This document shows, piece after piece, positions 7,779 to 47,434 of a stretch of 47,955 nucleotides of DNA. This stretch comes from a virus, in IMG/VR virus record IMGVR_UViG_3300049825_000166, positions 1 to 47,955 of that record; one strand, given 5' to 3'. Made by a program: the position numbers and the translations under genes. The stretch's first letter is position 1, and each line of letters starts with the position of its first letter. Under the pieces are notes generated by a model that ran no database searches, was not told the origin of the DNA, and saw only the letters and a program-made list of their open reading frames with translations.

Positions 7779-7896
7779 TTTGTGGGTTCTCCCTTCCCGG
7801 TATGCTATGTAGAGTGGTATATGTTGTGTAGCTAACCCGCCATTGTACAGGGGGGAGGCAGCTAATGCCACGTGAAGCTATTGGAAATGGTTTGTG

Positions 7897-11128: not shown

Positions 11129-11313
11129 TGGAACCTACGTGCTTCGTGTGTTACCAAAAGTGTGAAGGCCTAACCAGTACCAACGGCTGGAATATGATCG
11201 ATGACAGGATTACCGCCACGCCGGGTAATCCGTTAGGTGAGCAAGTGTTTTGTGATAAGCACATGCCGGAACCTGTCGGTCGCGTTGCGCCATTGGAAGA
11301 CTGGCCGCAATAG
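11128..11313 (+). CDS. Small cysteine-rich protein
   Basis: This gene encodes 61 residues from ATG 11128. CFVCYQKC near the start and CDKH later could coordinate zinc. No family is recognised. It precedes the large terminase by one base. Confidence 0.5.
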   Translation: MEPTCFVCYQKCEGLTSTNGWNMIDDRITATPGNPLGEQVFCDKHMPEPVGRVAPLEDWPQ

Positions 11314-11314
11314 C

Positions 11315-12853
11315 TTGAGTACCCTGGCACCCAATCCGCTCTGGCTCCTGGCCGACGAGCTAGATCCACCGAATGGTGGTCTGGTTGACGATCCGGTTGC
11401 ATGGGGTCAAGACAAGATGGGTGCCTACTGTTGGAGCAAGATCGATGAGATCTGCCAGTCCGTCGTTGACAACCGCTTCACGGCCGTACACTCGTGTCAC
11501 GGCATTGGTAAGTCTTGGTCTGCCGGTGGCCTGATTGTGCCGTGGTGGATTGACGTTCACCCCGTGGGTAGCGCGAAGGTAGTCACCACGGCACCAACGT
11601 CGGCGCAGGTGGACGCTATCCTCTGGGGTGAGATTGATAGCACTCATGCCAAGCTTCAGATGCGAGGCAAGATCACAGCTAGTGGTTTCCCCAAGTGGCA
11701 TATTGGCCGTCAGCTCGTGGCCTTCGGTCGTAAGCCTCAGGACCTAAAGAATGAAGAGCAGGCACGGCAGGCATTCCAGGGTATCCACGCCAAGTACGTG
11801 CTAGTCGTACTCGACGAGGCGTGTGGCGTACCGGGATGGCTATGGGATGCGGCGATGGCGCTCGTTACTAACCGCTACTGTCGGATCCTTGCCATCGGTA
11901 ACCCGGACGACCCGACGAGCCGGTTCAAGGAAGTATGTATGCAATCCAAGAACTGGAACGTCATTCACGTAGACGCATACGACAGCCCACTGTTCACAGG
12001 CGAGTACGTGCCGGACTACCTGCGTGATCTGCTCATTAGTCCCGAGTGGGTGGAAGAGATGCGTGAGGAGTGGGGCGAGGATTCCCCTATCTTCCAAAGC
12101 AAGGTTCGTGGCCGGTTCCCAGAAGACAGTGAAATTGCGGTCATCCCTTGGTCGTTCATGGTCAAGCGCCGGAACATCGAGGTTGAATACACCGATTGGG
12201 AACTACAACCGAATGAGCTTGGTATTGACCCTGCCGCTGGAGGTGACCAGTTCTCCATTCACTGGCGTACCGGACCGAAGTGGCGAGGCAAGTGGAACTT
12301 CACCCACAAGGACACGATGATTTCTGTGGGCGAGTGTGTGCGTATCATCCTTGAGACAGGTGCCACACGGGTTAAGATCGACAGCATTGGCATCGGAAAG
12401 GGGGTTGCAGATCGACTCACCGAGGTACTGCGTGAGCAAGACATTCCCTGTGAAGTGGTTCAAGTCCACACAGGTACTCCCGCAAGGAGTAAAAAGGGAA
12501 AGCTCTTGTTCAAGTCCCTCCGTTGTCAACTGTGGTGGGAGGTAGGTCGTCGGCCGATGGAGCGTGGGGAGGTTGATCTTTCCGAACTAGATGATCGCAC
12601 CGCTGCCCAGCTTACGTCGGTGCAGTATTCCATCAGCAGCACGGGACGAATTGATATCGAACCCAAGGCCGATACGAAGGCCAGGATCAAAAGGTCTCCC
12701 GATGATGCTGATGCATACCTGTTGGCCTACTTCTCACCCACACTTACGGATCCAGGGCCGGGAGGCAGCGTAAGCAAAGGCCCCGAAACCGAAGAGCCGG
12801 TTATCCGCAAGGGTGACCTCGTACTGAAAGGCCGAAAGTATGCCGACCGATGA
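11315..12853 (+). CDS. terL: Terminase large subunit
   Basis: This gene encodes 512 residues from TTG 11315, directly after the previous stop. The frame upstream lies inside the preceding gene. The ATPase domain shows a Walker A-like HSCHGIGKSW (residues about 59-68) and a Walker B VVLDEA (Asp167, Glu168). The C-terminal nuclease domain has acidic motifs GIDPAAGGD, KIDSIGIGKG and DDADAYLLAY, as in RNase-H-fold terminases. It powers DNA translocation into the prohead and cuts concatemers. The TTG start has only a weak ribosome site, so expression may rely on coupling. Confidence 0.92.
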   Translation: MSTLAPNPLWLLADELDPPNGGLVDDPVAWGQDKMGAYCWSKIDEICQSVVDNRFTAVHSCHGIGKSWSAGGLIVPWWIDVHPVGSAKVVTTAPTSAQVDAILWGEIDSTHAKLQMRGKITASGFPKWHIGRQLVAFGRKPQDLKNEEQARQAFQGIHAKYVLVVLDEACGVPGWLWDAAMALVTNRYCRILAIGNPDDPTSRFKEVCMQSKNWNVIHVDAYDSPLFTGEYVPDYLRDLLISPEWVEEMREEWGEDSPIFQSKVRGRFPEDSEIAVIPWSFMVKRRNIEVEYTDWELQPNELGIDPAAGGDQFSIHWRTGPKWRGKWNFTHKDTMISVGECVRIILETGATRVKIDSIGIGKGVADRLTEVLREQDIPCEVVQVHTGTPARSKKGKLLFKSLRCQLWWEVGRRPMERGEVDLSELDDRTAAQLTSVQYSISSTGRIDIEPKADTKARIKRSPDDADAYLLAYFSPTLTDPGPGGSVSKGPETEEPVIRKGDLVLKGRKYADR

Positions 12854-20267: not shown

Positions 20268-20990
20268 ATGACTTCGGCAGAGTACATCAAGCGTAACTCT
20301 CACTTGGATCTGTACGATCTGCTGGAGCGCCGACGTGCCGATGCGAAGTCACCCGACGAGCGTTCGGCACTGGACAAGGTCTATGATGACCTGGCCTTGT
20401 CGGCTATGCATGGGGGTCCCTTCGAGCCTCGGGCCTCCATGCAAACCTGGCGTGAAACACTGGCAATGTCAGTAGCGGATACGGCAATCACCAACAGTGC
20501 CGTAGAAACAATCCTTACCCCGGACCAAAGCATTCCAGCTAACTATCTGATTCCGGGCCGTTGTTTGAAGTGGACATTGTTTGGTAACTCTTCCTTTGTC
20601 ATCACGACTCCGGGAACGCTTACTATGCGTCTTCGGTATGGTGGTGTTGCCGGTACGGTGCTAGCTGCCAGTGGTGCGTACGCTCCCGACCCTACAGCGG
20701 CTCAGGCAAACCGCTCTTGGGGCCTTGAGTGGTATGTGGTAGCCCGTGCCAATGGTACCGCCGCTGCTCACATTTGCTTCGGTAAGTTCTGGCTCAACGA
20801 CGTGGATGACGCAACTGTTACCACGTTGCAAGGTAACCTCAACATGAGCATTGCGCCCGCATCCGCTCCGGCGACTGTCAACATCAACACGACCACGGCC
20901 AACGCCCTGTCCCCGACGGTTACCCACTCGGTGGCTACTGCCGGTACTCAAACCACTTGCCAGATGGCAATCTTGGAATCGCTCTCGTAA
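20268..20990 (+). CDS. Probable virion structural protein
   Basis: This gene encodes 240 residues. A helical N-terminus (SHLDLYDLLERRRADAKSPD) leads into a beta-sandwich-like segment (FVITTPGTLTMRLRYGGVAG), similar in style to virion surface proteins. The stop overlaps the next ATG (TAATG), tying it to the repeat protein that follows. Confidence 0.5.
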   Translation: MTSAEYIKRNSHLDLYDLLERRRADAKSPDERSALDKVYDDLALSAMHGGPFEPRASMQTWRETLAMSVADTAITNSAVETILTPDQSIPANYLIPGRCLKWTLFGNSSFVITTPGTLTMRLRYGGVAGTVLAASGAYAPDPTAAQANRSWGLEWYVVARANGTAAAHICFGKFWLNDVDDATVTTLQGNLNMSIAPASAPATVNINTTTANALSPTVTHSVATAGTQTTCQMAILESLS

Positions 20991-22360
20991 TGACCGTTGT
21001 CGTCTCAGATAGCATCCTTCAAGGATGGCCCGCATATGGTCGGGCTCCTATGCCCATGCGTGGTCCTGGTGTGGATAGGGTTATCGGGCGAAGTCGTATT
21101 CGGCGGGCAGGTGGTGCTCGTAGGGTAACGAACGACCAGTTTGGGGGGTCAACGGGATATGGACGTCCGGCACCCGGCCAACCGTTCACGATCTTTACCT
21201 TAGGCTTGGACGGTTCTATCACGCCCTCAGGCATTGAGGTGAGTTTCGTTAGCACTTTCGAAGCTGGAGCTATTGGTCCCGTTGGTGGGCTGGTGAAAGC
21301 CGTAAGTACCTTCGAATCGGGGGAGCTTAGTTCGGTAGGTTCAATCCTCAAGCTGGTAACAGCAACCAAGGGTGGAACAATATCACCCATTGGTACGCTC
21401 GGCACCTTGAAGGTGGTAGTTCTTGCCCTGGCAGGGACACTAACACCATCGGCGATTATTCAACGGTTGACATCCAAGTTTGCGGGGGGGACACTAACTT
21501 CGAGTGGTACACCTATCAAACTCGCAAACCTGTTTAAGTCGGGAACACTAACGTCGTCAGGTCTTGCGGTCAAAAGGTCATCAGTGTTCAAGGCGGGTTC
21601 GATAACACCAACCGGAACAATAGCCACACTCAAAGCCTTCACAATTGTTCTCGTTGGTTCTTTGGGTCCTTCAGGGGCCGTGAAGACGTTTGTATCACTA
21701 GCCAAATCTGGGCTCATTCAACCTTCAGGGATCCCCCAACGTCTCACAAACAAGTTTCTTTCCGGAAGTCAGTCCCCGACAGGCTCGATAGTCAAGCGTC
21801 CTAACTTGTTCAAGGGTGGAACACTAAACCCGACGGGTACGCCGAGCTTTCTTCGGGCGCTTTTGTTGACCTTATCCGGTAGCCTCTCACCGAGCGGGTC
21901 TGTAGTCAAACGAACTAGCGTGTTCAAGGCCGGTTTACTGTCTCCAACGGGAACAATTACAAGGTTGACGGCTAGGTTCTTGTTCTTGGCAGGGAGCCTT
22001 ATACCTGTGGGGTCGGTGACCAAGTTCGTGACATTGGCTAAGTCCGGAGTGGTTAGTTCGTCCGGGTCCCTTAGTCGTCTGACTAAGAAAATTCTTTCCG
22101 GTATAACGGCTCCGGTCGGCACATCGGTAACACAGTTCTTCCCGGGTACTGGAAGTAACCTTTTCACTTTGCTATTGGGGGGTTCAATTGGCCCCCGAGG
22201 TAGGGCAAGAGGGTTTTCATACTTCCCACCTAACCCGGGAGGTAGCAGCTACACAGGGGATACGGGTACCGGGACTTATGGTGCTGACCCTGCGGATACA
22301 TATGGCGGAATGGATTCCTTCACCTACGGTGGCTCCGATGAATTCACATACGGGGAGTAA
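20990..22360 (+). CDS. Repeat-rich beta protein, probable virion component
   Basis: This gene encodes 456 residues from ATG 20990. About 18 repeats of roughly 20 residues each carry a G-x-[IL]-x-P/S-x-G core (GTLTSSG, GSITPTG, GSLSPSG) separated by basic-hydrophobic linkers such as VFKAG and RLTNKF. This periodicity suggests a beta-solenoid or an extended fibre. The C-terminus is Gly/Tyr/Thr-rich (SYTGDTGTGTYGADPADTYG). It lies between head and connector genes. A head fibre or capsid surface protein is the best guess, and a possible target for the nearby glycosyltransferases. Confidence 0.6.
   Translation: MTVVVSDSILQGWPAYGRAPMPMRGPGVDRVIGRSRIRRAGGARRVTNDQFGGSTGYGRPAPGQPFTIFTLGLDGSITPSGIEVSFVSTFEAGAIGPVGGLVKAVSTFESGELSSVGSILKLVTATKGGTISPIGTLGTLKVVVLALAGTLTPSAIIQRLTSKFAGGTLTSSGTPIKLANLFKSGTLTSSGLAVKRSSVFKAGSITPTGTIATLKAFTIVLVGSLGPSGAVKTFVSLAKSGLIQPSGIPQRLTNKFLSGSQSPTGSIVKRPNLFKGGTLNPTGTPSFLRALLLTLSGSLSPSGSVVKRTSVFKAGLLSPTGTITRLTARFLFLAGSLIPVGSVTKFVTLAKSGVVSSSGSLSRLTKKILSGITAPVGTSVTQFFPGTGSNLFTLLLGGSIGPRGRARGFSYFPPNPGGSSYTGDTGTGTYGADPADTYGGMDSFTYGGSDEFTYGE
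21211..22203 (+). repeat. Coding repeats, about 18 units of roughly 60 bp
   Basis: The repeats are clear at protein level (G-x-[IL]-[TSG]-P-[ST]-G) but diverged at DNA level, so they are ancient or selected rather than freshly expanded. Some units are longer by 6-8 hydrophobic residues, giving an irregular period. Confidence 0.8.
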
Positions 22361-22362
22361 CG

Positions 22363-22788
22363 ATGGCAATCACAACTAACCTGGACAAAGTTCGTCTGGA
22401 AATCGGGGACACCGAAGCTACCTCGTATCTTCTTTCAGATGATGAAATCAACTACTTCCTTACCGAGGAAAGCCAGAATGTGTTACGAGCGGCTTTTCGA
22501 GCTTGCGACGCTTTGGCTCGTAAGTTTGCTCGGGCATATGATTTTGAAACGGATGGCCAAAAGTTTCATCGTTCCCAAGCGTTTGAAGCATTTTCCAAAG
22601 CCGCTGATGCTCTCCGCAAGCGTGCAGGTATTAGTGAGTTTGGGAACACGAATAGTGGGGCAGGTACCATCAAGACTACACGTATCGATGGTTACTCTGA
22701 CGGAGATCAACCCACAAACGAAGATGTACTAACGACCAGTAGCAATCCACGACGTAGGTACTACGGACAGGAAGACAGAACACCATGA
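22363..22788 (+). CDS. Head-to-tail connector (adaptor) protein
   Basis: This gene encodes 141 residues. The helical pattern LDKVRLEIGDTEATSYLLSD, with DDEINYFLTE and RACDALARKFARAYDF, is typical of gp15/gp6-like adaptors that bind beneath the portal. It follows a GGGGAG ribosome site. The disordered C-terminus ends in an ATGA overlap with the glycosyltransferase gene, so the sugar cassette was inserted directly after it. Confidence 0.75.
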   Translation: MAITTNLDKVRLEIGDTEATSYLLSDDEINYFLTEESQNVLRAAFRACDALARKFARAYDFETDGQKFHRSQAFEAFSKAADALRKRAGISEFGNTNSGAGTIKTTRIDGYSDGDQPTNEDVLTTSSNPRRRYYGQEDRTP

Positions 22789-23939
22789 GAATACTTTGGC
22801 ACTCGAATGCACCTTGGGCTCCTTCTGGTTATGGGAACCAGACGGCCTTGGTCACCAAACGTTTGAAAGAAATGGGACACGAAGTAGCGATCTCCGCCTT
22901 CTACGGTATTCAAGGGGCGGCCATTGAATGGGACGGTATTCGGGTATACCCCGGAGGCTGGCAGCCCTACGGTAATGATGTCCTTGCGGCACACGCCACG
23001 GACTTCAAGGCCGACCTAATCATCACCCTTGCTGATATGTGGGTACTCGATCCTAACGTGCTCAAGCAGTTCCCTTGCGCTTCATGGGTGCCCGTAGACC
23101 ACGACCCACTACCCCCTAAGGTTCTTCATCACATCCTTGAATCAGAATGTGTGCCGATTGCGATGAGTAAGCATGGGATGAATGCCATGAAAGATGAGGG
23201 ACTTGATCCAATATATGTCCCACATTGTGTAGACACTGAATTCTGGGTTCCATATGGGCCGGAAGAGCGGGAAGCGGCCAGGGACCGACTAGGATGGCCT
23301 CAGGAGGCCTTTGTGGTTGGTTTTGTAGGCACCAACCGGGGTTACCCAAGCCGGAAGTCCCTGCCCCAATCCCTAATGGCGTTTGCGCAGTTCGTGTTGA
23401 GGCACCCGGACTCCTTAATGTACCTTCATACGGAACCCCATGGCGTTGTCGAAGGTATTCACCTTCCCACGTTGTGTTCGCGGTTGGGCCTCAATCCCGA
23501 CAATCTTCGTTGGTTTCCCCCAGACCAGTACATTGCAGGAGCTTCCCCTAAACATCTTCTCGAATGTTACAACGCAATGGATGTCTTGCTCCACCCGAGT
23601 ATGGGAGAAGGTTTTGGTATTCCTATTGTGGAAGCTCAGGCGTGTGGTACTCCCGTTATCACTACGTCATGGACTTCTATGCCAGAACTGACAGAGGTCG
23701 GTTGGTGCGTAGGAGGTGAGCCGTGGTGGACTACACAAAACTCATTCTGGAAGGTACCTAACATCAAGGAACTTGTCGACTCTTTGGAGTCCGCCTATCG
23801 GATGGCGGGAAGAATGCGCACCCGCGCTCGTGGGTTTGCGCTGAATTACGATGCCAACCTAGTAGTCAAAGAAGTTTGGTCAACGGCCCTTGAAACCATC
23901 GATTCAAGAATCAACGGTACTGTAGAAGTGATGGCATGA
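22785..23939 (+). CDS. Glycosyltransferase, GT-B fold (GT4-like)
   Basis: This gene encodes 384 residues. The N-terminal Rossmann domain starts MRILWHSNAPWAPSGYGNQT. The C-terminal domain has VGFVGTNRGYPSRK for the donor phosphate loop and the signature GEGFGIPIVEAQACGTPVIT with the paired Glu residues that hold the nucleotide sugar. It likely transfers a sugar with retention of configuration. Being first of a four-gene cassette amid structural genes, it may modify a virion protein, or modified DNA bases. Confidence 0.85.
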   Translation: MRILWHSNAPWAPSGYGNQTALVTKRLKEMGHEVAISAFYGIQGAAIEWDGIRVYPGGWQPYGNDVLAAHATDFKADLIITLADMWVLDPNVLKQFPCASWVPVDHDPLPPKVLHHILESECVPIAMSKHGMNAMKDEGLDPIYVPHCVDTEFWVPYGPEEREAARDRLGWPQEAFVVGFVGTNRGYPSRKSLPQSLMAFAQFVLRHPDSLMYLHTEPHGVVEGIHLPTLCSRLGLNPDNLRWFPPDQYIAGASPKHLLECYNAMDVLLHPSMGEGFGIPIVEAQACGTPVITTSWTSMPELTEVGWCVGGEPWWTTQNSFWKVPNIKELVDSLESAYRMAGRMRTRARGFALNYDANLVVKEVWSTALETIDSRINGTVEVMA

Positions 23940-24544
23940 GTATGCTTATCATAGTTCCTACAGTTTCGGGCCGTGAAGAGTCTTTAAAACAAACCCTCGA
24001 GGGCTACAGCAGAACCATACCGGATGACACATTTGTTCGCGTTGAATATGGTCACCCCACTTGTGGGGAAGCTTGGAACCAAGGAGTAACTACCTGGAGT
24101 CAAGACCTAAACGTTACCATGATCCACCTAACCGCGGATGATATTGTTCCCGAGCCGGGTTGGTATGAAGCGGCCGTAGAAACTCTCCGACGCGGAGTGA
24201 TGCCCGCACCGAAGGTGTACTCACCTTCTAACCCGGGCCAAGCCAGCTTCGGCCACATGGGTGATGGCCAACTGATGCACATCGACGAAACCCCGGATCG
24301 TACTCCTTGCCGTACCTCAGTCATCCCCACTCTGTGGAGGGAATGGTGGCGTCCTTGTTTGCCGATTCACTACTACAGTGATGATTGGATGTCACTGGTA
24401 GTGCGTCACCAAGCGGTGCCCATTGAAACGGTCAAAGAGTACGCATTCACTCATGGGTTCGCTGATGGTGGTGCTCGTCCGGATATGTACGAACGTATTC
24501 GTCGAGACCGCGCAACCTTCATGTCAGCCGCAGAGGCATTGTGA
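23936..24544 (+). CDS. Glycosyltransferase-like protein, GT-A/GT2 type
   Basis: This gene encodes 202 residues, short for a full GT2 enzyme. It starts MLIIVPTVSGREESLKQTLE, the usual nucleotide-binding strand and turn, and has LTADDIVPEPGW, which fits the DxD metal site. A later YSDDWMS acidic motif is a candidate base or acceptor site. The ATGA overlap joins it to the GT4 gene. Family assignment is probable, substrate unknown. Confidence 0.7.
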   Translation: MSMLIIVPTVSGREESLKQTLEGYSRTIPDDTFVRVEYGHPTCGEAWNQGVTTWSQDLNVTMIHLTADDIVPEPGWYEAAVETLRRGVMPAPKVYSPSNPGQASFGHMGDGQLMHIDETPDRTPCRTSVIPTLWREWWRPCLPIHYYSDDWMSLVVRHQAVPIETVKEYAFTHGFADGGARPDMYERIRRDRATFMSAAEAL

Positions 24545-25353
24545 TGAGAGTAGGATGGATTTCAGACCCTATCTCTGATTATCTCGGCGGAGCTGAATTG
24601 GTGGAGAGAGACCTGCTCGACACTTGTCCAATGGACGCGGAGATAATTCGTTACCAATCGGAACTTGAGCCCCTCCCCAATGTGGATGTGTTTGTTATCC
24701 ATAACGTAACTACCTTTACATCGCGGCTAGCTGAAAGGCTTTCCCGCAAGTCAACTCCTATCATTAAACAGGTTCACGACCTGTGGTTCCATGGCAATGT
24801 CGTACTTCGTAGTTTCCTTCTAGAGTCAGCTACCGTAGTGCTTTTTGGTTCCCAACTACATCGTAAAGCTTTCACTCACGAGGTGAAGGCCCCCTTTGTT
24901 GTTCGCCCCCCTGCCGTAAATGGCGCACGTTACGCCGAACCAAGCACCCATCGAGACAAGCCCCGAGCGGATGCCGTTGCTTGGGTGGGTCGTTTGTTCT
25001 TTGGTAAAGGAATTCAACAGGCTCTACGGTGGGCAGACTCAAACGAAAAAGACATTCATTTCTATGGTTGGGGACCAGAAGCAAGGAGCATCCCCACGAG
25101 CCGTTACTACGGACCTTTGGTGCCCGACGAAGTGCCTCAAGTTCTACAAGAGTACAGCGAATTTGTTTTCTTACCCACTATGAAAGAACCATTCGGGCGT
25201 TCGGTGGTGGAGGCTAAATTCAGTCGGTGTAATCTTATCCTCAACAGTAATGTTGGAGCGGCCGAGTGGTTAGAGCCGTGGAGTCAGATTACTAACTCTT
25301 GTCAAAACTTCTGGACACTTACTCAAGGGATCGCAAGGAAGGCAATCGTATGA
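24544..25353 (+). CDS. Glycosyltransferase, GT-B fold, compact
   Basis: This gene encodes 269 residues from ATG 24544; GTG 24541 is in frame but inside the overlap. It shows GWISDPISDYLGGAELVERD (GGAE loop), AVAWVGRLFFGKGI and EPFGRSVVEAKFSRCN, the EPFGxxxxEA donor-sugar signature. It is shorter than a normal GT4 enzyme, suggesting a reduced acceptor domain. Second GT-B member of the cassette. Confidence 0.8.
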   Translation: MRVGWISDPISDYLGGAELVERDLLDTCPMDAEIIRYQSELEPLPNVDVFVIHNVTTFTSRLAERLSRKSTPIIKQVHDLWFHGNVVLRSFLLESATVVLFGSQLHRKAFTHEVKAPFVVRPPAVNGARYAEPSTHRDKPRADAVAWVGRLFFGKGIQQALRWADSNEKDIHFYGWGPEARSIPTSRYYGPLVPDEVPQVLQEYSEFVFLPTMKEPFGRSVVEAKFSRCNLILNSNVGAAEWLEPWSQITNSCQNFWTLTQGIARKAIV

Positions 25354-26423
25354 ACATTCTCGTAACCGGATCAAGTGGGTTCATCGGAATGCATCTTGTC
25401 CCTGAGTTGGAGCTACGTGGTCATCGGGTATTCGGTATGGACATAAAAGATGGTGACCTGACCTTGCCCTTAGTGGAAGTGGGTCTCACCCGTTTCATCG
25501 AAGTCCATGGAGTGGAGTTGGTTATTCACCTTGCCGCTGTAGTCGGTAGAGAATTTGGGGAAGATGACGTTGCTAATACCATCCACAGTAACGCCCTAAT
25601 GACCACACGGGTAGCTCGTGCGACAGCGGCGGGTAAAGCTCGGCTTATGTACGTGTCTACGTCGGAGATTTACGGCGACCAAGGGCTTCGTGCCTGCCGT
25701 GAGTCTGACCGAAAAACCGTACCTCACAATCTGTATGGCCTGAGTAAGCGGTGGGGTGAAGAAGCGGCGACTCTCTACTGCCCTGTGGGGTTGCAAATCA
25801 TCCGTTTGTCTATGCCCTACGGGCCGGGCCTACCGGCCGGTCGAGGTCGTGCGGCCATCATCAACATGATCTGGCAAGCAACCCATAACAAGTCCATCCC
25901 GGTACACAAGGGGGCGATGCGTTCATGGTGTTGGATTGGGGATACGGCTAGAGGTATTGCGCTTGTGGCGGAGAATGGCGAGCGAGCTCAATCCATGCAC
26001 GCACTAGAAAATGGAATCGGCGCATACAACGTGGGTAATGACCTTGATGAACATACCATGATCGAGGTTGCCGATTATGCCTGCCAACTGGCCGGAGCGT
26101 CGCGTGAACTAATTCGTCTTACGGACGCACCTTCGAACCAGACTGTAATCAAAAGGCTTTCCATGGCAAAGCTTCGTGCCTTGGGATGGACACCAAAAGT
26201 GGATTTGTATGGTGGCATGGAAGCCACACACGAGGTTATCAAGCAGTTCTACACAAAGGAAGGAGAGGTATATGCCAGCCGAGAGGAACTTGCCGAATGT
26301 GTCAGAAACGCAACCCTCCGAGCCAACCCCACCGGAACCGCCAAGCGGTTTGACCACGCCGGAGGCGGATTCGGAGAAGGTCGTGGATGGCCAGCTCAAC
26401 GAGTGGGAGAAGATGGGAGTTAG
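25350..26423 (+). CDS. NAD-dependent nucleotide-sugar epimerase/dehydratase (extended SDR)
   Basis: This gene encodes 357 residues from ATG 25350. It has the NAD-binding GSSGFIG turn, LVIHLAAVVG, STSEIYGDQG and the catalytic YGLSK (Tyr-xxx-Lys). Extended SDR enzymes of this sort epimerise or dehydrate UDP-, GDP- or dTDP-sugars, so it can supply an unusual donor to the three transferases. The enzyme fold ends at about residue 310. The last 50 residues overlap, in another frame, the small gene at 26272, so the tail may be non-essential. Confidence 0.85.
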   Translation: MNILVTGSSGFIGMHLVPELELRGHRVFGMDIKDGDLTLPLVEVGLTRFIEVHGVELVIHLAAVVGREFGEDDVANTIHSNALMTTRVARATAAGKARLMYVSTSEIYGDQGLRACRESDRKTVPHNLYGLSKRWGEEAATLYCPVGLQIIRLSMPYGPGLPAGRGRAAIINMIWQATHNKSIPVHKGAMRSWCWIGDTARGIALVAENGERAQSMHALENGIGAYNVGNDLDEHTMIEVADYACQLAGASRELIRLTDAPSNQTVIKRLSMAKLRALGWTPKVDLYGGMEATHEVIKQFYTKEGEVYASREELAECVRNATLRANPTGTAKRFDHAGGGFGEGRGWPAQRVGEDGS

Positions 26424-39453: not shown

Positions 39454-39690
39454 TCACTCACCTGTTTGCAGTCCGAGGCCGAATTTTCTTGTGGCTTGAG
39501 CAACCTTGAACACATTGTCTGCTAACTTCCCCACATACTCACGCTCCTCTTCTGTAAAGCTCTTGGCCAAAAGGCCATTTCGATTAGACGGTTGGTGAAG
39601 TTCACGAAGCCTATGGCCTATAGTGTCGAGTATGATAAACCATGCAAGACACATACTTCCGGCCGCTTTTCTTTTGGTTAGCCTTCCCAT
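39454..39690 (-). CDS. Unknown small protein
   Basis: This gene encodes 78 residues from ATG 39690, overlapping the polymerase 3' end by 13 bases. Helical, with a charged C-terminal half (FTEEEREYVGKLADNVFKVA). It sits between polymerase and nuclease genes and is possibly a small replication accessory. No family is recognised. Confidence 0.5.
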   Translation of the reverse strand: MGRLTKRKAAGSMCLAWFIILDTIGHRLRELHQPSNRNGLLAKSFTEEEREYVGKLADNVFKVAQATRKFGLGLQTGE

Positions 39691-42155
39691 GGTCCAGTTT
39701 CTCCCCAATGTTGACCCACTTCCATATCCGCCACGATCGGGACCGTAATGTCCGGGCCGAAGGTGTCTTTGACGTAGTCAAGGTCTTCCATGGTATCCTT
39801 GATTTCACGACAGTAACGGTTGACATACTTGTATGGATCCTTTGGCGGCCCGGCTTTCACCTGGAACAAGAGAGAGTCGTGGACCGTACCCACAATGAAA
39901 GCCCGATCCTGAGGCAATGAGTCGTGAAGTCGTACCAGTGACATGAGCATTAGGTCAGAAGCAAATGACTGGACAGGTGAGTTGATGGCTTGCCGCTCAG
40001 CCTCGTTGCGTACTCCCTTTTCTTGTGATTGGATGTCCGGTAGGTGCCGAATACGGCCAATAGGTGACACGACCCGTTTGTAGCGATTGGCAAGCCGACG
40101 TTGGCGTTCGTGCCAGGGCCGCAGACGTGGGTAGTCGTTGAAGAAACCGTTACGGTCTTTTTCAGCTTCCTCAAGGGTGACCACCAGCTCGTAGTTATCG
40201 AATGCATATTGCACGAACTTTTCTGCGCCCATGCCGTAGATATACCCGAAATTCACCGCCTTGGCTTTTTTACGTTCTTCCTTAGCTATTTGTTCTTGAA
40301 TCTTACCCGTCATCTTCACGGCACGATTCATATGGATATCTTCGCCGCGCAGATACTGGCTGATCATTGTGGTTTCGTTAGCGAGCCATGCCGCGATACG
40401 TAGTTCAACTTGCGAATAGTCAGCCTGCACGAAAAACCAACCGGGCGGAGCACCAAGAATGGAACGAATAAAGGGGTCTCGGGGTACTTGTTGGATACCA
40501 CCTTCACCAGACAAGCGGCCAGTGACTGTACCGAAAAGTTTATAGTTGGAATGAATGCGGCCATTGTTATCCATATGTTGGAACATGAATGGCAGAAGAT
40601 AACGACTAAGATAAAGTTCCCATTTGCGGTATTTCATGATGGCAAGTGGAATACGATGTTGATGCTGGAGTCTCAGAAGTACAGATTCCTTAGTGCTCCG
40701 GGCACCCCTAGCCGTCTTTTCAATAACCGGAAGACCTAAGTGGTCGAACAGAAGCTTAGCCATATGGACGGGGGATCGGGGATTGAAAGGGTTGGCCTTG
40801 ACCCGACCGGCCTTCGTCTTGGTATCGGTTAGCCCTTCTGGCACTTGTTTACGGATCCAAGCCAGTATCTTTTCACGATTTTCAACAGACTGATCGTGAC
40901 GTTTTTGCCAACGTTGGGGATCAAGCCAAACACCCGCACGCTCAATATCCACCAATGCGTTCGAAGCTGGCATCATCAGGTGCGTGAATACCTTTTCCAA
41001 CCGGGCATCTTTAACCAATTCACGTTTGAACGGGTCACGTAAGCGTCGTGTGTAATCTGTGTCTTTGCCATTATACTCTACGAGGCGCTTTAGCGGCATC
41101 CCATAGGCATCCCTAAGGTCCTCCCCTACGTCGTAGGCCTCGGCCCCTAGTTCGGTGCGCGAAAGGTTCTTAAGGCCTTTGGGACGATTCTCCTCCAGCA
41201 TGTGAGCCGCAAGCATGGTGTCGAACCCCTGTGGGATGTTCACGCCTTTCGCGGCCATCCATCTTGCGTCGAACTTGCCGTTATGGCCTATGTACTCACA
41301 GTTAGGTCGCTCGAGCGCCGGACGAAGGTAGTCAAGGATTACTTGCGGATTTGGCCAGGGTTGAGACTCATGCCATAGGGGTACGACCACAGAAAGGCCA
41401 GGGTCCCACGTGAATGAGATGGATACGATACACGAGTCTTCACCATGCCACTCTTGAAAGTTGGTACGCTTATGGCTTTTACGCTTGTCTGCGAAGGTGA
41501 ACGTTTCAATGTCGTATGCAAGGACATCCACCTTCATCAGTTTCTTACGAAGAGCGACTAAGGCTTCTTTCGTGCGTACCACTTTGGTGAGGGTTTCCGG
41601 GCTAGTAGCTTCGCCACGGGTGAGCGCCCCGAATCGTTGCATATCCATAGCAAACGTCTTCGCCCATGAAGGGTTACGGAGAATAGCGGCTGGGTGAAGT
41701 GTGGGCATGATGGCCGCTTCCTCACCATTCAACCTTTGGCGTTCAATGGTCCCGGCATACTTAGTAATCCCAGACCTGCCAAGCAAAGCTTGAAGAGCAA
41801 CGTTGCCGAGCAAGAGTACGAATCGTGGATGCACCTTGTCAATCTCAGCAAAGAGGTAGTGGGCCGCACACGTCTTGATTTCAGCTCGTTCTGGGGTACG
41901 GTTATCAGGCGGACGACACTTGACCACATTGGTGATGTAGCACTGAGCGCGATCGATAACCGCTAGCTCGGCCAGGGCCTTGTCAAGTAGCTTACCTGCC
42001 GAACCGAGGAATGGCGAACCTTCACTGTCTTCACGTTGGCCAGGTGCTTCACCCACAATCATGATGTCCGCATCTAATGGTCCCGAGCCCGGCATACAGA
42101 CATAATTCGCGGACTCGTTCAAAGGACACAAGACGCAATTGTGGTCGAAGAGCAT
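39678..42155 (-). CDS. Fused family-4 uracil-DNA glycosylase and DNA polymerase I
   Basis: This gene encodes 825 residues. Residues 1-180 are an apparently intact family-4 UDG: cluster cysteines C7, C10, C80 and C96, motif GEAPGQRED (35-43) and the second motif LHPAAIL with His154. A 3'-5' exonuclease follows (LAYDIETF with D215/E217, HNGKFDARW, YNGKDTDYT). The polymerase palm and fingers carry QADYSQVELR, KAVNFGYIYGM and VHDSLLF (Ser in place of the usual Glu after His-Asp). It replicates phage DNA and may remove or sense uracil ahead of synthesis. A UDG-like N-terminus is known in the SPO1 polymerase. Confidence 0.92.
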   Translation of the reverse strand: MLFDHNCVLCPLNESANYVCMPGSGPLDADIMIVGEAPGQREDSEGSPFLGSAGKLLDKALAELAVIDRAQCYITNVVKCRPPDNRTPERAEIKTCAAHYLFAEIDKVHPRFVLLLGNVALQALLGRSGITKYAGTIERQRLNGEEAAIMPTLHPAAILRNPSWAKTFAMDMQRFGALTRGEATSPETLTKVVRTKEALVALRKKLMKVDVLAYDIETFTFADKRKSHKRTNFQEWHGEDSCIVSISFTWDPGLSVVVPLWHESQPWPNPQVILDYLRPALERPNCEYIGHNGKFDARWMAAKGVNIPQGFDTMLAAHMLEENRPKGLKNLSRTELGAEAYDVGEDLRDAYGMPLKRLVEYNGKDTDYTRRLRDPFKRELVKDARLEKVFTHLMMPASNALVDIERAGVWLDPQRWQKRHDQSVENREKILAWIRKQVPEGLTDTKTKAGRVKANPFNPRSPVHMAKLLFDHLGLPVIEKTARGARSTKESVLLRLQHQHRIPLAIMKYRKWELYLSRYLLPFMFQHMDNNGRIHSNYKLFGTVTGRLSGEGGIQQVPRDPFIRSILGAPPGWFFVQADYSQVELRIAAWLANETTMISQYLRGEDIHMNRAVKMTGKIQEQIAKEERKKAKAVNFGYIYGMGAEKFVQYAFDNYELVVTLEEAEKDRNGFFNDYPRLRPWHERQRRLANRYKRVVSPIGRIRHLPDIQSQEKGVRNEAERQAINSPVQSFASDLMLMSLVRLHDSLPQDRAFIVGTVHDSLLFQVKAGPPKDPYKYVNRYCREIKDTMEDLDYVKDTFGPDITVPIVADMEVGQHWGETGPWEG

Positions 42156-42607
42156 TAGAGTGCCTTAGATTCGTGGTCTTGTCCACGAAAGTGATCTACG
42201 GTAATCCCAAACGTAACAAGATTGCCCGAGGCACCTTCACGATAAGGCAAACCATAACTTACCTTACTGATTCCAGCTTGGTGGATCAACATGGCACACC
42301 GGAGACAAGGTTCGTGGGTGGAAAACAACGTACTGCCCCGAAGACTAATACCTAAGTCGGCCGCTCGAGCAATAGCGTTAGCCTCCGCATGGAGAGTGCG
42401 TGTACATCCTCCTTCAGGCCCTATTTGACAACCGCCGTCAATACAGTGGCGCTGCCCAGAAGGAGCCCCGTTGTATCCATGGCTAAGGATATGCCAATCT
42501 TTTGATATGATAACACAACCGACTTGTGCCCGCTCACATGTAGCCCGTTGAGCAAAGAGACTAGCTATTTCATGGAACAATTGACGACGCCAAATCCGAT
42601 CAGGCAC
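42155..42607 (-). CDS. Deoxycytidylate (dCMP) deaminase
   Basis: This gene encodes 150 residues from GTG with AAGGAAGG five bases upstream. The zinc site is HAEANAIA (His73, Glu75) and EPCLRCAM (Cys101, Cys104), as in ComEB/T4 Cd-type enzymes. It converts dCMP to dUMP, feeding thymidylate synthesis. TAATG coupling to the polymerase ties it to replication. Beside a putative dCMP-modifying enzyme it may balance pyrimidine pools. Confidence 0.9.
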   Translation of the reverse strand: MPDRIWRRQLFHEIASLFAQRATCERAQVGCVIISKDWHILSHGYNGAPSGQRHCIDGGCQIGPEGGCTRTLHAEANAIARAADLGISLRGSTLFSTHEPCLRCAMLIHQAGISKVSYGLPYREGASGNLVTFGITVDHFRGQDHESKAL

Positions 42608-43445
42608 GAGTACCTTCCTTCACCAATCGCTCAAGCCGTGAAAGCTCGGGCTTGAAGATGTGCAATGACATCATCCACATCGTGAGCGTGCCCGGTACCA
42701 CACTTTGCCATTGCGTCATTCCTGGTTCCCGTTCAAAGGGTTCGCGGTCCTTTAGTTGTTTGAGCACCCATTGCCCGAGTCGAGCGGCCAGGTATACATC
42801 ATCAACAAAATGCCGGAACAGGTCGCAAGACCGAATCACATAGTTGACATGGAGTTGGCTATCACGACGCATGAAGTGGTAACCGAGTGAGCACGGTACC
42901 CGTTCGCCGTGATGTGCTCCGGTGTCTTCTGGGAACCAGATGGGTAGGTACGCTTGACGAGTGGTGGGTTCACGCCACAAGAGATTGACCACGTCGTCTA
43001 GGTCACCGTAACGGTAACGGATCCCCGTGCGTGATTCAAGTTTCCCAAGCGGCTTAGAAAAGGCGTCATCGGCGAACCGAGGCCACATTCGTTCCATGTA
43101 TGTGTGACTGAATTCACCTTGTTCTTTGTGTTTCTCGACGTTACCCGCGTACCAAGGCCATAGGTGAAATGTGTCCCCCGGGTTGAGCGGGTCACCACCA
43201 ACACGCTCCTGAAACTGTAGTTCGGCCCACGGCGTTGAAGGCTTGACGTCATCATGTAGGTCTTGCCACGTCGCCGGGATCTGGTATTCTACGACTACGT
43301 TTTGGGTTTCGAATGTTTCAACCTGTGGAACGTTTTTGAGGGCCTGCCAATGCCCGGTGTTTACTTCCCTTCCCGACTGTAAGAGCTCGTACATTGCATA
43401 GTGATACAAGGTATCAAAGTCGGGGTGATCACGAATAGTCTCCAT
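42600..43445 (-). CDS. Thymidylate-synthase-fold enzyme, probable dCMP hydroxymethylase type
   Basis: This gene encodes 281 residues. The TS core is visible: RQAYLPIWFPED (phosphate-binding Arg region), VPCSLGYHF with catalytic Cys185, and VIRSCDLFRHFVDDVYLAAR. Counting from the Arg-Ser pair, the residue matching E. coli ThyA Asn177 is Asp216. This change converts dUMP to dCMP specificity in T4 dCMP hydroxymethylase and in engineered TS. The expected reaction is therefore addition of a one-carbon group to dCMP C5. Family membership is strong, the substrate is inferred. It is coupled by TAATG to a second TS-like gene. Confidence 0.8.
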   Translation of the reverse strand: METIRDHPDFDTLYHYAMYELLQSGREVNTGHWQALKNVPQVETFETQNVVVEYQIPATWQDLHDDVKPSTPWAELQFQERVGGDPLNPGDTFHLWPWYAGNVEKHKEQGEFSHTYMERMWPRFADDAFSKPLGKLESRTGIRYRYGDLDDVVNLLWREPTTRQAYLPIWFPEDTGAHHGERVPCSLGYHFMRRDSQLHVNYVIRSCDLFRHFVDDVYLAARLGQWVLKQLKDREPFEREPGMTQWQSVVPGTLTMWMMSLHIFKPELSRLERLVKEGTRA

Positions 43446-44341
43446 TACTCTCCCTTCGGCCTACGTGGGTGGGCCTGGTATGAACCGGCTTTGTGTTCCG
43501 GCAGTTCGATGAACATCTTCGGTAGTAGCTCCAACGAGTCAAGGGGTATTGACGGGAACCCCGGCCCTTCTTTGACAATCAGGTATCGTTGGAACATGCG
43601 TTGAAGCTGATTGTATTTGATGTCTTCCAAAGGCTTTTCTTCTTGCCTCCACCCTTCGAGCTGGCCCATCATCTTACGGGTCATGGCCAGTACGGGGTAG
43701 TCTGCGCCTTCCCTACGGGCCTTAGTGGCCCACTTGCTTTCTCGTTCAAACGTGTCAACGTAAGACAAAGATTTGAACCCGTGCCAAGCCAGCGCGTCAA
43801 GGCACCAACGGAACTTGATATCTTCAACTTCGAAGCCCCCATCACGTGCAATCTCACGGGCGATGACCCAAGCTAGTGCAAGGTCAATGGCACCCACCCA
43901 TGCGATGTAGCTCACGCGTGAATGCATCACAAGTGTGGGGGGCATATCTCTCTTGCTACTATTCTGGTATGTGAATGCCATCATACAGTTTCCCCAAGTG
44001 TGGCGCTCCACTCCATCTGCCGTACGAGCCGACGCACAGAACATCTGTGCAATCATCCCTCGCTTGCCATGGCTCTTGTTGATCATGCGGCAACGAGACA
44101 AGAAGTTGCTGACTTGGAATGGATCCAGGTAGTCACGTTGCAAACGAGGAAATCTAGCTTTGGTCATCCACAGGTCGGTGCCGATGTCGATATCGAATTC
44201 CATGGACTCAGCCTGCAAGACGTGATTGAACATTACAGCTTGGGTAGCACCATAGTTGTCCAGTTGGTCCCTACGGGACCAGAGCATGTGACTACAGGCT
44301 CCGAGCCAAAGGTCGGTGAGAGTGGGGAAAGATTTATGCAT
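43445..44341 (-). CDS. Second, divergent thymidylate-synthase-fold protein
   Basis: This gene encodes 298 residues. GNCMMAFTYQ (Cys119), then PPTLVMHSRVSYIAWVGAID fits the TS catalytic-Cys and nucleotide-binding segments, with Arg142 and, eleven residues on, Asp153 at the dUMP/dCMP selector position. Spacing is three residues longer than in the neighbour. It may be a second pyrimidine C5-modifying enzyme, or a partner subunit in a heterodimer, since TS active sites form across a dimer. The fold call is weaker than for the neighbouring gene. Confidence 0.6.
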   Translation of the reverse strand: MHKSFPTLTDLWLGACSHMLWSRRDQLDNYGATQAVMFNHVLQAESMEFDIDIGTDLWMTKARFPRLQRDYLDPFQVSNFLSRCRMINKSHGKRGMIAQMFCASARTADGVERHTWGNCMMAFTYQNSSKRDMPPTLVMHSRVSYIAWVGAIDLALAWVIAREIARDGGFEVEDIKFRWCLDALAWHGFKSLSYVDTFERESKWATKARREGADYPVLAMTRKMMGQLEGWRQEEKPLEDIKYNQLQRMFQRYLIVKEGPGFPSIPLDSLELLPKMFIELPEHKAGSYQAHPRRPKGE

Positions 44342-44810
44342 CTACATTGGTAAGATCTACGTGTGGATGAAATCCAATAGTAGTACCTAACTGACTAGCG
44401 CCGGGAACGTACTCTAAGGTTTGTGTCCCTAACGCCACAGGTACAGGTCCGCCAAGAGGTAATGTCGTTTGGCCGTCGTGCGGGTTGTCTTTCCAGTTCC
44501 TCTTGCTGACGACCTTGTTCCAGGTGTCAATCACTTGTTGTTCAAGGTCGAAACCTTCGAACCGGGCCACGCTCATGAGATAGATAACAATATCTGCGGC
44601 AGCGTCCTTGACCGCTTCGGTATGTTCTTCGTGTGTACCACGGATGCCTTGGTCACGCTTGAGCATGGCATGGGCCATCTCACCGACTTCTTCGGTCACT
44701 CCGAGCAGAGCCCGCATGGCGTCCATGTTTGGGAAGTTATCGGCTTCCCAAGCATCACGCGCTTGCTGAACCTCACGAAGTGTTGTTACAGATTTCGCAT
44801 TACTCGACAT
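44334..44810 (-). CDS. MazG-type nucleotide pyrophosphohydrolase
   Basis: This gene encodes 158 residues with GGGAGGAAGC before the ATG. The all-alpha NTP-pyrophosphatase motifs are present: VTEEVGEMAHAML (Glu40/41/44) and VKDAAADIVIYL (Asp69/73). Such enzymes hydrolyse dNTPs to dNMP and pyrophosphate. Next to dCMP-type TS enzymes it could remove unmodified dCTP, as dCTPase does in T4, or act on signalling nucleotides. The C-terminal 50 residues are unordered. Confidence 0.85.
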   Translation of the reverse strand: MSSNAKSVTTLREVQQARDAWEADNFPNMDAMRALLGVTEEVGEMAHAMLKRDQGIRGTHEEHTEAVKDAAADIVIYLMSVARFEGFDLEQQVIDTWNKVVSKRNWKDNPHDGQTTLPLGGPVPVALGTQTLEYVPGASQLGTTIGFHPHVDLTNVDA

Positions 44811-45340
44811 GCTTCCTCCCAGTTTCTGATCTCGTGTGCGGATTCGTCAATCGCACTGGCTACGAAAGGGTTGATGGTGACCATAAAGTCGGTGGTGGGG
44901 ATGATGTACCCCATAGATAGGGCTTTGTACCAATCCCAAATCTGTTGAATGTTGTCTTTCACGGGTTGAGGTTGGCCGCTCAAAATCAACTCATCTACGT
45001 GAGGTAGACAAATGAATACCAGCGCGGGCAAATGTGTCAAGATACCTTGATACATACGTACTTCGGGGACGGTCAGTTGACATTCTCGTCTGAGGCAGTT
45101 GGAATAAGCCAACTCCGAATAATACAGCCTGTCGAATACGGGGATACGTGGGGGGTTGGAAACTGTATGCCCGAAAGCTACCTGGTAATCCCTTCTCACA
45201 CTGTCTGCCAAAGTCTCACGATTACCTCTGTTGCGATCAAAAACCCGGTATCGTTCTGGATCTAGTGGCCCACCTTCGGCCGTTAGCTGTTTCATCAACG
45301 TGGTTTTGCCCGCTCCATCTGGGCCTTCAAAGATCACCAT
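44786..45340 (-). CDS. Deoxynucleoside monophosphate kinase, thymidylate-kinase-like
   Basis: This gene encodes 184 residues from ATG 45340, sharing an A with the upstream TAA. The longer frame to 45493 lies inside the preceding gene. Walker A is GPDGAGKTT (6-14) and the DR(Y)xxS motif is VFDRLYYSELAYS. It phosphorylates a dNMP using ATP. In this setting the substrate may be a modified dCMP (T4 gp1 analogue) or dTMP. Confidence 0.82.
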   Translation of the reverse strand: MVIFEGPDGAGKTTLMKQLTAEGGPLDPERYRVFDRNRGNRETLADSVRRDYQVAFGHTVSNPPRIPVFDRLYYSELAYSNCLRRECQLTVPEVRMYQGILTHLPALVFICLPHVDELILSGQPQPVKDNIQQIWDWYKALSMGYIIPTTDFMVTINPFVASAIDESAHEIRNWEEACRVMRNL

Positions 45341-45621
45341 TATTCCGGCTTCCTTAGGTAGACTTTGTTCATCTGTCTGCGATGCGGTACCCGTTGTATC
45401 AAACCCATTTTCTCTAAGCAAGTTAGGTCCCAACGCAGCTGACGGTACGTCGGTTGCGGTAATCCCGCCAGGGTAACATCGTCTACTGCACAATCCAATA
45501 CAGCGGGCTCAAGAATACCGAATGGCGGGTGCGGCGGTCCCGGATCTTTACGATAACACAAACTGCGGATGGTAGACATCAACACCTGCCGTCTCATTCG
45601 TATCACTTGTGGTCGAGTCAC
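45340..45621 (-). CDS. Winged-helix-like small protein
   Basis: This gene encodes 93 residues from GTG overlapping the helicase stop. The C-terminal segment TYRQLRWDLTCLEKMGLIQR looks like a recognition helix and wing of a winged-helix fold. It might regulate the replication operon or help initiator loading. No family is recognised. Confidence 0.55.
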   Translation of the reverse strand: MTRPQVIRMRRQVLMSTIRSLCYRKDPGPPHPPFGILEPAVLDCAVDDVTLAGLPQPTYRQLRWDLTCLEKMGLIQRVPHRRQMNKVYLRKPE

Positions 45622-47012
45622 TTTTCTCCCTTCAATTTCGAAGTGATTTGCTCAACTCTTTTTGGGTTTTCGGTCAATAGCTGGGCAACGTCCTTTTTCA
45701 ATTGCATTGCCTCATAGTTGACCTCTTGGCGTGTACCATGTGCGATCAGGTAGTCGTATTGTAGTGTTCTCTTTTCTTGGTACTTTTCAATACGACGGAT
45801 GAACTGGTCATGGATAACATAGCTTTCCGAGATGGAATAGATCATCATGGTGTCAGCGGCGCTCAGGTCGATAGACTCACGAGCCGTGGCTAGCTGAGCT
45901 ATGAAAGCCACCTTGTCTTTCGTGTCTTGGAAATCCTTGATACGACGTTTACGTTCGGCTCCACGAGGTACGCCACCATGAAACATGATAACGCGAAAGC
46001 CGGCTTTCTTAGCCGCTAGGGCCGCATCGCGTAGCTCAGGCAAGAACCGACAACCAACGACAACCTTGAGGATACCTTCATCGGCATAATGTTGGAATCT
46101 TGCTTCAGCTACACGCACTTGGTCTGACCCCACACGTCGGTAGCGGCCGTCGGGCAGCTTCAGCCAGCCACCGGCTATCTGGGAACACCGTAGGTGCCTA
46201 CTGAGTACGATAACCGAGGTTACCGTTACGTCACCCGCCTGCACTACTGACTTCTTTTCCATATCAGCGTAAGCCTTTAGACCTCTTCCGGTCAAATGGT
46301 AACGAATCACATTCACCTGTGGTGGTTCCCCTGGCACATAGGGTTCGATGACCACAAAGGTTTTCATGCGTTTCATCACCCACTTTAGGTTGATGTATCG
46401 CAACACTTCGTGACCGCCATGACCGCCAAAGATAGCAATGCGGTTCTTGAATGCGCTGAAGTGTGTGCCAAAAAGGCCAGGATCCCAGAACTTTGCTTGA
46501 CCAAATACATAGAAGGGTTTGCGGTGGAACATCGTGCCCGTCATGAGCAAGCGAAAACGGGCTCGGCGTCCTAGGTCGTACACCTTCTTAGATTGGAGTG
46601 TGGAAGGGTTGCCGATACGATGGGCTTCATCTACGATAACGATGTCAGCGTCAAAGTCAATTAGTTCGTGGTTGTCCATCGCAACCCAACGTCGGCTACC
46701 TTTCTCTGGGTAATATCTCTTGAATGTAGATTCGAAGTTGACCATTTTCCACTCAAGCGGTATGTCGTCTGGTAAGTGTTTTGGGATTTCATCCTCCCAC
46801 ACGCCGAGTGCGTCGATGGGTGCGATAACGAGCACACGTCGAGCACCCTCGAGTAGGTGCATACATGCGGCGAAGTCAATAGCTGTTTTAGTCTTGCCCC
46901 ATCGCATCGGCACCTGTAGACCGCCGCCACGTTGTTTCACAAGCCGCTTCAGTGCTCGGTGCTGGTGAGGTCTAGGCTTGGTCTTGTATTGGTATTTCAA
47001 GGTATTTCCCAT
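45618..47012 (-). CDS. DEAH/SNF2-type superfamily 2 helicase
   Basis: This gene encodes 464 residues. I favour ATG 47012; an upstream TTG at 47030 is possible. Motif I is PMRWGKTKTA, motif II VIVDEAHRI, motif III LLMTGTMF. In the second domain are FHGGVPRGAERKRRI and motif VI QFIRRIEKY. Such phage SF2 enzymes, similar to SNF2 and RapA types, translocate on duplex DNA during replication or repair. N- and C-terminal extensions are short, so only the core motor is present. Confidence 0.85.
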   Translation of the reverse strand: MGNTLKYQYKTKPRPHQHRALKRLVKQRGGGLQVPMRWGKTKTAIDFAACMHLLEGARRVLVIAPIDALGVWEDEIPKHLPDDIPLEWKMVNFESTFKRYYPEKGSRRWVAMDNHELIDFDADIVIVDEAHRIGNPSTLQSKKVYDLGRRARFRLLMTGTMFHRKPFYVFGQAKFWDPGLFGTHFSAFKNRIAIFGGHGGHEVLRYINLKWVMKRMKTFVVIEPYVPGEPPQVNVIRYHLTGRGLKAYADMEKKSVVQAGDVTVTSVIVLSRHLRCSQIAGGWLKLPDGRYRRVGSDQVRVAEARFQHYADEGILKVVVGCRFLPELRDAALAAKKAGFRVIMFHGGVPRGAERKRRIKDFQDTKDKVAFIAQLATARESIDLSAADTMMIYSISESYVIHDQFIRRIEKYQEKRTLQYDYLIAHGTRQEVNYEAMQLKKDVAQLLTENPKRVEQITSKLKGEK

Positions 47013-47434
47013 TCCTCTTTGGTGGGCCAAAAGTATGGGAGGTCGTTAGGAACCTTGGGCCAGAATTTGCCATAGTGGTTAGGATCTTTACGCACCAAGT
47101 TTGATCTGTGGGATCTATGGAAAACTTGGAGCCCTAACCATGGGGGCAACCAAACGTACGAACCGGGCTTTGGCTTTCGTTCCTCAAACCACGGTAGTAA
47201 CGTGTCTTTGAATCCTCGGCTAAGCCACTCCCGGCAAACTATGTATCCGTATAGGGCTAAGGCTTGCTCACACCCCCTCCACATATGAACGGCTGGGTGG
47301 TTTTGCCATCCATAAGTAGGGTCATCTAATGCCGTCCAGATTTGTTTGGCCTCAACTCGTTGTTTCCCTAACCGCTTGTTATCTAAAACTTGTGTGGAGT
47401 GATTGAAGTCGCTATATGGGAGAAAGGTTTGCAT
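46997..47434 (-). CDS. Pyrimidine-dimer DNA glycosylase-like protein (MSMEG_6728-like)
   Basis: This gene encodes 145 residues from ATG 47434. MQTFLPYSDFNHSTQVLDNK, RLGKQRVEAKQIW and HPAVHMWRG are the pattern of an actinobacterial family linked to T4 endonuclease V-type glycosylases. If active, it would excise UV dimers. Many members are uncharacterised, so the repair role is inferred from family annotation. It overlaps the helicase start. Confidence 0.7.
   Translation of the reverse strand: MQTFLPYSDFNHSTQVLDNKRLGKQRVEAKQIWTALDDPTYGWQNHPAVHMWRGCEQALALYGYIVCREWLSRGFKDTLLPWFEERKPKPGSYVWLPPWLGLQVFHRSHRSNLVRKDPNHYGKFWPKVPNDLPYFWPTKEEWEIP

Follow-up and report, generated by a model that had tools for sequence, protein, structure and literature searches.

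The 47,955-nucleotide virus contig IMGVR_UViG_3300049825_000166 (hereafter the window, meaning the whole stretch analysed; the record is possibly incomplete) encodes at 42155–45340 a run of five nucleotide-metabolism genes. We regard these as probably a module for modifying cytosine at the nucleotide level, with a thymidylate synthase (TS)-fold enzyme, TS1, making 5-hydroxymethyl-deoxycytidine monophosphate (5-hydroxymethyl-dCMP). That TS1 yields a C5-modified dCMP of some kind is very likely. The new part of the finding, underplayed in a first-pass annotation of the window, is the product of the adjacent gene, TS2: a TS subfamily of which we found no description and which keeps a set place upstream of a TS of the cytosine type. 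The first-pass annotation had named all five genes, which are indeed present on the minus strand, and likened their roles to T4 Cd, gp42, gp56 and gp1; the comparison holds for a module built on a TS of the cytosine type (Asp at position 177, Escherichia coli numbering).

42155–42607, minus strand: dCMP deaminase, Cd-like, with HAE and PCxxC motifs (PF00383, E = 1.7e-24; PF14437, E = 2.9e-15)
42600–43445, minus strand: TS1, TS-fold enzyme (PHROG 160, E = 8e-30; PF00303, weak, E = 3.8e-5)
43445–44341, minus strand: TS2, second TS-fold protein (sole family match PHROG 13667, of unknown function; no Pfam family)
44334–44810, minus strand: MazG-like all-alpha nucleoside triphosphate (NTP) pyrophosphohydrolase in a gp56-like role (weak matches to PF12643, E = 5e-4, and PF03819, E = 9e-4)
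44786–45340, minus strand: P-loop deoxynucleoside monophosphate (dNMP) kinase, thymidylate-kinase-like, Walker A GPDGAGKT (PHROG 761 thymidylate kinase, E = 9e-10), starting at the ATG at 45340

The deaminase, pyrophosphohydrolase and kinase were thus correctly called at first pass. Neighbouring genes among the five overlap by 1 to 25 nt, with a common TAATG at the TS2/TS1 junction, a layout such as translational coupling would show. Relatives occupying the MazG position, and T4 gp56 itself, match PF08761 (dUTPase_2).

TS1 carries a cytosine-type selector residue

The AlphaFold model of TS1, built from 77 sequences (predicted local distance difference test, pLDDT, 92.1), matches solved TS enzymes in the PDB at E about 1e-12, and also the CMP hydroxymethylase MilA (5b6d) and AfhB, the dCMP hydroxylase of phage HY126 (9iqu, 9iqc; fold score TMt 0.71–0.73). 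In a sequence-profile search three solved proteins come closest to TS1, each at E about 1e-9 (MilA, AfhB and the N229D mutant of L. casei TS, which uses dCMP); MilA is the top solved match to TS1 by sequence and to TS2 by fold, and it shares Asp at 177.

Residue equivalences for TS1 and TS2 are based on alignment, spacing and predicted secondary structure; the Arg-to-Asp spacing is 11 residues in TS, TS1, TS2 and AfhB alike. Mapped to E. coli TS, TS1 has Cys185 for Cys146, Ser186 for His147, Arg205 for Arg166, Asp208 for Asp169, Asp216 for Asn177 and His262 for His207. The catalytic Cys185 (gp42 Cys148) and selector Asp216 (gp42 Asp179) are each kept in 76/77 homologues, the lone copy without both being a tandem duplicate (locus L142). 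Arg205, His262 and the folate-pocket Asp208 (gp42 Asp171, in an RSxD motif) are present in all 77, and position 186 is Thr or Ser in 76. The Asp predicted at first pass at the dCMP-selecting position is therefore retained far beyond chance. Replacing Asn177 with Asp is known to shift TS from uracil nucleotides to those of cytosine (PMC8670742), and Asp216 points to cytosine, not to which group is added. For the sugar, TS1 resembles deoxyribose-preferring enzymes (Arg163 and Ser206), whereas MilA has Lys133 and Ala176 at these two sites, for ribose (PMC5175136).

The same assortment of enzymes is known from the MetaGPA study (eLife 2021, PMC8670742), which independently links Asp177-type TS, dCMP deaminase and an NTP pyrophosphohydrolase fold to cytosine-modified phage DNA, ties position 147 (the second residue) to cytosine-modified contigs, and describes how a 5-hydroxymethylcytosine (5hmC) carbamoyltransferase was found from the pairing of TS and carbamoyltransferase. 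TS1 is a further member of this kind: it has Asp177 and a non-His residue at 147, and its loci show the same accompanying Pfam domains and the MetaGPA-type linkage, with PRA-PH/dUTPase_2 neighbours and a dCMP deaminase homologue in 110/115 loci with both TS1 and TS2. Upstream of two TS1 relatives from other phages lies a carbamoyltransferase gene, at distances of about 1.3 and 6 kb. Carbamoyltransferase is found in some MetaGPA contigs, whereas neither it nor ThyX was found in the window. TS2 is not mentioned in the available text of that study, and a scan built on Pfam would have had to miss it for lack of a Pfam domain.

Dedication of the operon solely to deoxythymidine triphosphate (dTTP) supply, running dCMP to dUMP to dTMP to dTTP, was proposed by the annotators of Gordonia phage Azira, whose operon was published as thymine synthesis, TS2 not being among the four genes named (PMC10353413). 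A dCMP deaminase, a dUTPase-like enzyme, a TS and a thymidylate kinase do make up the textbook dTTP route. Yet the marks of canonical ThyA are absent from TS1: Asp stands for Asn177 in 76/77, Ser or Thr for His147, and the C-terminal lid is missing. A true ThyA or ThyX is additionally present in some relatives: phage Triscuit encodes a separate canonical Asn177 ThyA beside TS1 and TS2, and myovirus ctfzr933 encodes ThyX, so TS1 is probably not the dTMP source of these phages. The TS1 proteins of the related phages Cleo, Emalyn and Button have Asp at the selector position, which argues against the thymine-synthesis reading of the Azira operon, and dTTP supply leaves TS2 unexplained. On these grounds TS1 is unlikely to serve ordinary dTTP supply, and an operon serving nothing else is very improbable. 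The Asp had been singled out at first pass as the key clue against such a role, and the wider comparison bears this out.

In some viral contigs a diverged TS1-like gene (TS1b) lies directly or closely after TS2 (L142:9818–10516, L040:2894–3589, L060:7880–8584 and L034:11915–12628). Salmonella ViI-type matches to TS1 were distant (26%, about half length) and were not used.

TS2 is a TS-fold protein outside the described families

No Pfam or NCBIfam family covers TS2. The Pfam family Thymidylat_synt recognizes none of its 78 members, a scan with the single protein gave no match, and a sequence search of the PDB returned nothing relevant. Profile comparison of TS2 with TS1 or gp42 was not significant with few sequences and weak with 78. 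We assign the fold because of the predicted structure and the wider TS2 profile, profile–profile matches being weak. The AlphaFold model (pLDDT 91.0), searched against the PDB with Foldseek, matches MilA (E = 8.9e-7), AfhB (E = 1.6e-6) and many TS structures; there are 184 PDB matches at E 0.001 or better, and the best 50 of the 184 all belong to the TS family. Matches in BFVD include gp42 and TS. Run against about 12,000 open reading frames from the loci together with reference proteins, the TS2 profile places TS-fold proteins in the first 18 positions after TS2 itself. It finds AfhB, its best characterized sequence match, at 13–15.6 bits, above all 1000 shuffles, whereas its score for gp42 is not above all the shuffles of that protein. 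An alignment including the divergent Brevundimonas and myovirus copies was too variable, and an actinophage-only alignment worked.

The catalytic residues of TS2 are retained: Cys119 and Arg142 in 78/78 members, and Asp153 in 76/78, with Glu in the other two. Elsewhere the pocket departs from TS. The place of the folate-contacting Asp169 is mostly Tyr or Glu (Tyr145 in the window copy), and that of His207-x-Tyr209 is Gln-x-His in most members (Ala-x-His in the window copy). This pattern points to an active enzyme whose contacts with cofactor or sugar have changed. The first-pass call of a second TS-fold protein is thus borne out by the model and its PDB matches, and its Asn-versus-Asp distinction at the selector falls on the side of Asp in both proteins; with Asp216 in TS1 and Asp153 in TS2, both therefore carry the cytosine-type acid.

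TS2 accompanies TS1 but TS1 can stand alone

A tblastn search places TS2 in 85 records, every one from an actinobacterial phage; copies that have diverged further occupy the same position in Brevundimonas phage Strzyga, myovirus ctfzr933 and Serratia phage Serbin. The operon is also found in Muddy, Emalyn-type phages, Serbin, Triscuit, Zuko and uncultured phages. Azira and its CT cluster, Muddy and Serbin have the same gene order (kinase, dUTPase/MazG, hypothetical protein, TS, deaminase, PolA, nuclease, ATPase), where the annotated thymidylate synthase is TS1 and the hypothetical protein is TS2; the Gordonia versions insert lysin B.

Among the fetched loci, which were gathered via the TS1 and TS2 proteins so that their proportions are biased, 115–116 carry both genes, 38 have TS1 without TS2, and a single locus, truncated at its end, has only TS2; no intact fetched locus had TS2 without TS1. 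The two genes always share a strand, and nearly all pairs lie within 1.1 kb with TS2 upstream, often with a 4-nt overlap. At one locus (L098:8888–9715 and 11062–11862) a TS2 gene stands on each side of TS1.

Phages with TS1 alone have the same active-site residues as paired TS1, including Gln at the second phosphate Arg, and TS1 therefore seems not to need TS2. An obligate TS1/TS2 heterodimer, which we considered, finds no support, given the identical active-site residues of the TS1-only phages. Distance correlations (TS1–TS2 0.49, TS1–polymerase 0.55, TS2–polymerase 0.88) reflect common ancestry and give no particular sign of a TS1–TS2 complex.

Probable hydroxymethylation and competing chemistries

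The analysis demonstrates the folds, the conserved residues, the layout of the operon and which genes occur together; the route that we favour would run as follows, with T4 as the model for what the MazG-like enzyme, kinase and deaminase do. The MazG-like enzyme would convert dCTP to dCMP, starving DNA of plain cytosine and feeding TS1. Cys185 of TS1 would attack C6 of dCMP while Asp216 protonates N3; a one-carbon unit would move from methylene-tetrahydrofolate to C5, and addition of water would give 5-hydroxymethyl-dCMP. The phage kinase, with host kinases, would take this to the triphosphate for incorporation by the phage PolA, and the deaminase would turn some of the dCMP into dUMP for dTTP synthesis via the host TS (or, in some relatives, a phage ThyA or ThyX).

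Four observations speak for folate-dependent hydroxymethylation. TS1 keeps the pterin-side Asp169 in RSxD, as do T4 gp42, MilA and TS, where flavin enzymes of the AfhB type read RSQN; it ends without the ThyA C-terminal lid; it has the Arg163 and Ser206 of deoxyribose enzymes; and two of its relatives have the carbamoyltransferase neighbour described above. The likeness to T4 extends to the roles of all five genes and, in gp42, to Cys, Asp179, Asp171, His216 and Ser169, each with an equivalent in TS1.

Several observations weigh against this assignment. TS1 forms its own clade (support 100/98) outside gp42, AfhB and ThyA, and its profile is nearer AfhB (83.6 bits, full length, E = 4e-12) than gp42 (44 bits, E = 8e-6). 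The 3′-OH pair of gp42, His216/Tyr218, is only half matched: His262 is present in 77/77, but the partner is Phe264 in 68/77, as in AfhB, and Tyr in 3/77. Gln replaces the second phosphate Arg (Arg124), E75 (the Glu58 equivalent) is Asp in many members, and the T4 hydroxylation residue Asp145 is Arg182 in TS1. A literature search turned up neither chemical work nor an analysis of the DNA for any carrier, and no paper addressing modified DNA in Muddy, Serbin or Gordonia phages. T4 also differs in replicating with the gp43 polymerase where the window phage has PolA, and is not known to have a TS2.

The nearness to AfhB raises a different chemistry, in which TS1, TS2 or both would be flavin-dependent 5-hydroxy-dCMP synthases and the DNA would hold 5-hydroxycytosine or a glycosylated form of it. 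AfhB shares the TS fold, the Cys, Asp at 177 and an H-x-F motif with TS1, outscores gp42 and ThyA in full-length profile comparison with it, and scores against TS2 above 1000/1000 shuffles where gp42 does not; TS2, moreover, lacks the folate Asp169. Set against this, Asp169 is present in 77/77 TS1 sequences (RSCD in TS1) where AfhB-type enzymes have Asn, a place taken by Tyr in TS2, and TS1 is a separate clade. AfhB, a Mosigvirus 5-hydroxy-dCMP synthase, sits beside sugar-metabolism genes in Mosigvirus. Family 4 glycosyltransferases (GT4) are nearly absent from the TS1/TS2 carriers, in which other sugar-transferase families were not searched. We consider 5-hydroxylation rather unlikely.

Methylation of dCMP by TS1, giving 5-methyl-dCTP and 5-methylcytosine DNA as in Xanthomonas phage XP12, is improbable. 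Asn-to-Asp TS mutants give 5-methyl-dCMP (cited in PMC8670742), and Asp alone therefore does not fix hydroxymethyl versus methyl. TS1, however, lacks the ThyA C-terminal lid, which is needed for hydride transfer, and has a polar residue, T115, rather than Val beside the proton-abstracting Tyr.

Within the hydroxymethylation route, TS2 would be a catalytically equipped TS-fold enzyme working only alongside TS1, probably on the product of TS1 or on dCMP, and perhaps with flavin rather than folate. Tentatively, and as a possibility only, TS2 may found a new TS-fold branch with flavin or another cofactor, acting in tandem with TS1 either to process hydroxymethyl-dCMP or to make a second modified pyrimidine nucleotide.

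The glycosyltransferase cassette lies outside the module

The first-pass annotation had also counted three glycosyltransferases and proposed that they decorate the modified cytosine. The genes form a head-region cassette, which we judge to be outside the module.

22785–26423, plus strand: glycosyltransferase/epimerase cassette, between capsid/connector and tail genes

Only part of that count stands: 22785–23939 is a clear GT4, 24541–25353 falls below the Pfam cut-off and 23936–24544 has no family match. Glycosylation of hydroxymethylcytosine by the three products (22785–25353) and the epimerase, as in T4, would draw on their presence in the same genome and on the sugar-nucleotide epimerase gene adjoining them. 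The Pfam matches, however, are to GT4 only and not to the T4 alpha/beta DNA glucosyltransferase families, and PF00534 occurs in just 2/56 TS1/TS2 phages, both below the cut-off. The closest relatives of the best window glycosyltransferase, in Microcystis phage Mae-JY09 (44%) and Pontimonas phage phiPsal1 (37%), lie between the major capsid and head–tail connection genes, and neither phage has a TS1 or a TS domain. The cassette is not part of the conserved module, and a T4-like role for it is barely plausible; it is a head-region insertion, whose products more likely decorate the virion or host surface than hydroxymethylcytosine.

Between the capsid and glycosyltransferase genes, 20957–22360 encodes a predicted 467-residue protein of repeats of about 20 residues (GSLTPSGxxxK...); no tandem DNA repeat was detected there.

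Neighbouring replication genes

The five genes are part of a single replication and nucleotide operon running on the minus strand from 47030 to 37076, in the order SNF2 helicase, dNMP kinase, MazG-like pyrophosphohydrolase, TS2, TS1, dCMP deaminase, uracil-DNA glycosylase (UDG)–PolA fusion, PD-(D/E)XK nuclease, Sak4-like ATPase and DUF669 protein. Two flanking genes are conserved neighbours.

39678–42155, minus strand: UDG–PolA fusion polymerase, directly downstream of the deaminase (PF03167, E = 2e-33; PF00476, E = 3e-80)
45618–47030, minus strand: SNF2-type helicase, directly upstream of the five genes (PF00176, E = 8e-13; in 98/115 TS1+TS2 loci)

The polymerase is present in 110/115 TS1+TS2 loci (108/116 in a second count). 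In the window it consists of a family-4-like UDG N-terminal to a PolA with 3′–5′ exonuclease, and UDG is fused to 87 of the 108 polymerases of TS1+TS2 loci. Retention of the fusion suggests a tie between uracil removal and this nucleotide pool.

Two further genes were noted. At 46997–47434 the window, which comes from a siphovirus, encodes a T4 DenV-like pyrimidine-dimer DNA glycosylase (PF03013, E = 1e-22), also present in 12 related loci. Away from the main replication operon, on the minus strand at 5625–7871, lies a 748-residue RepB-primase plus AAA_25 protein, likely a primase-helicase.

Implications

The cytosine-modification assignment predicts that a sizeable set of cultured siphophages of actinobacteria and proteobacteria (Gordonia CT-type, Mycobacterium Muddy/FF47, Microbacterium, Streptomyces, Serratia and Brevundimonas) contains modified cytosine in its DNA, despite annotation of the operon for thymidylate synthesis. 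How restriction, CRISPR and type IV defences act on a phage changes when its DNA is modified, which matters for host range and for those working with Muddy and similar phages. Many cultured phages share TS2 under the label 'hypothetical protein'. It represents an unassigned branch of an intensively studied enzyme fold, retains both the nucleophile and the cytosine-type acid, and occurs in growable phages, so that its chemistry is directly testable. If TS1 and TS2 do act in tandem, siphophages including the therapeutic phage Muddy would carry a new base made by two TS-fold enzymes in series.

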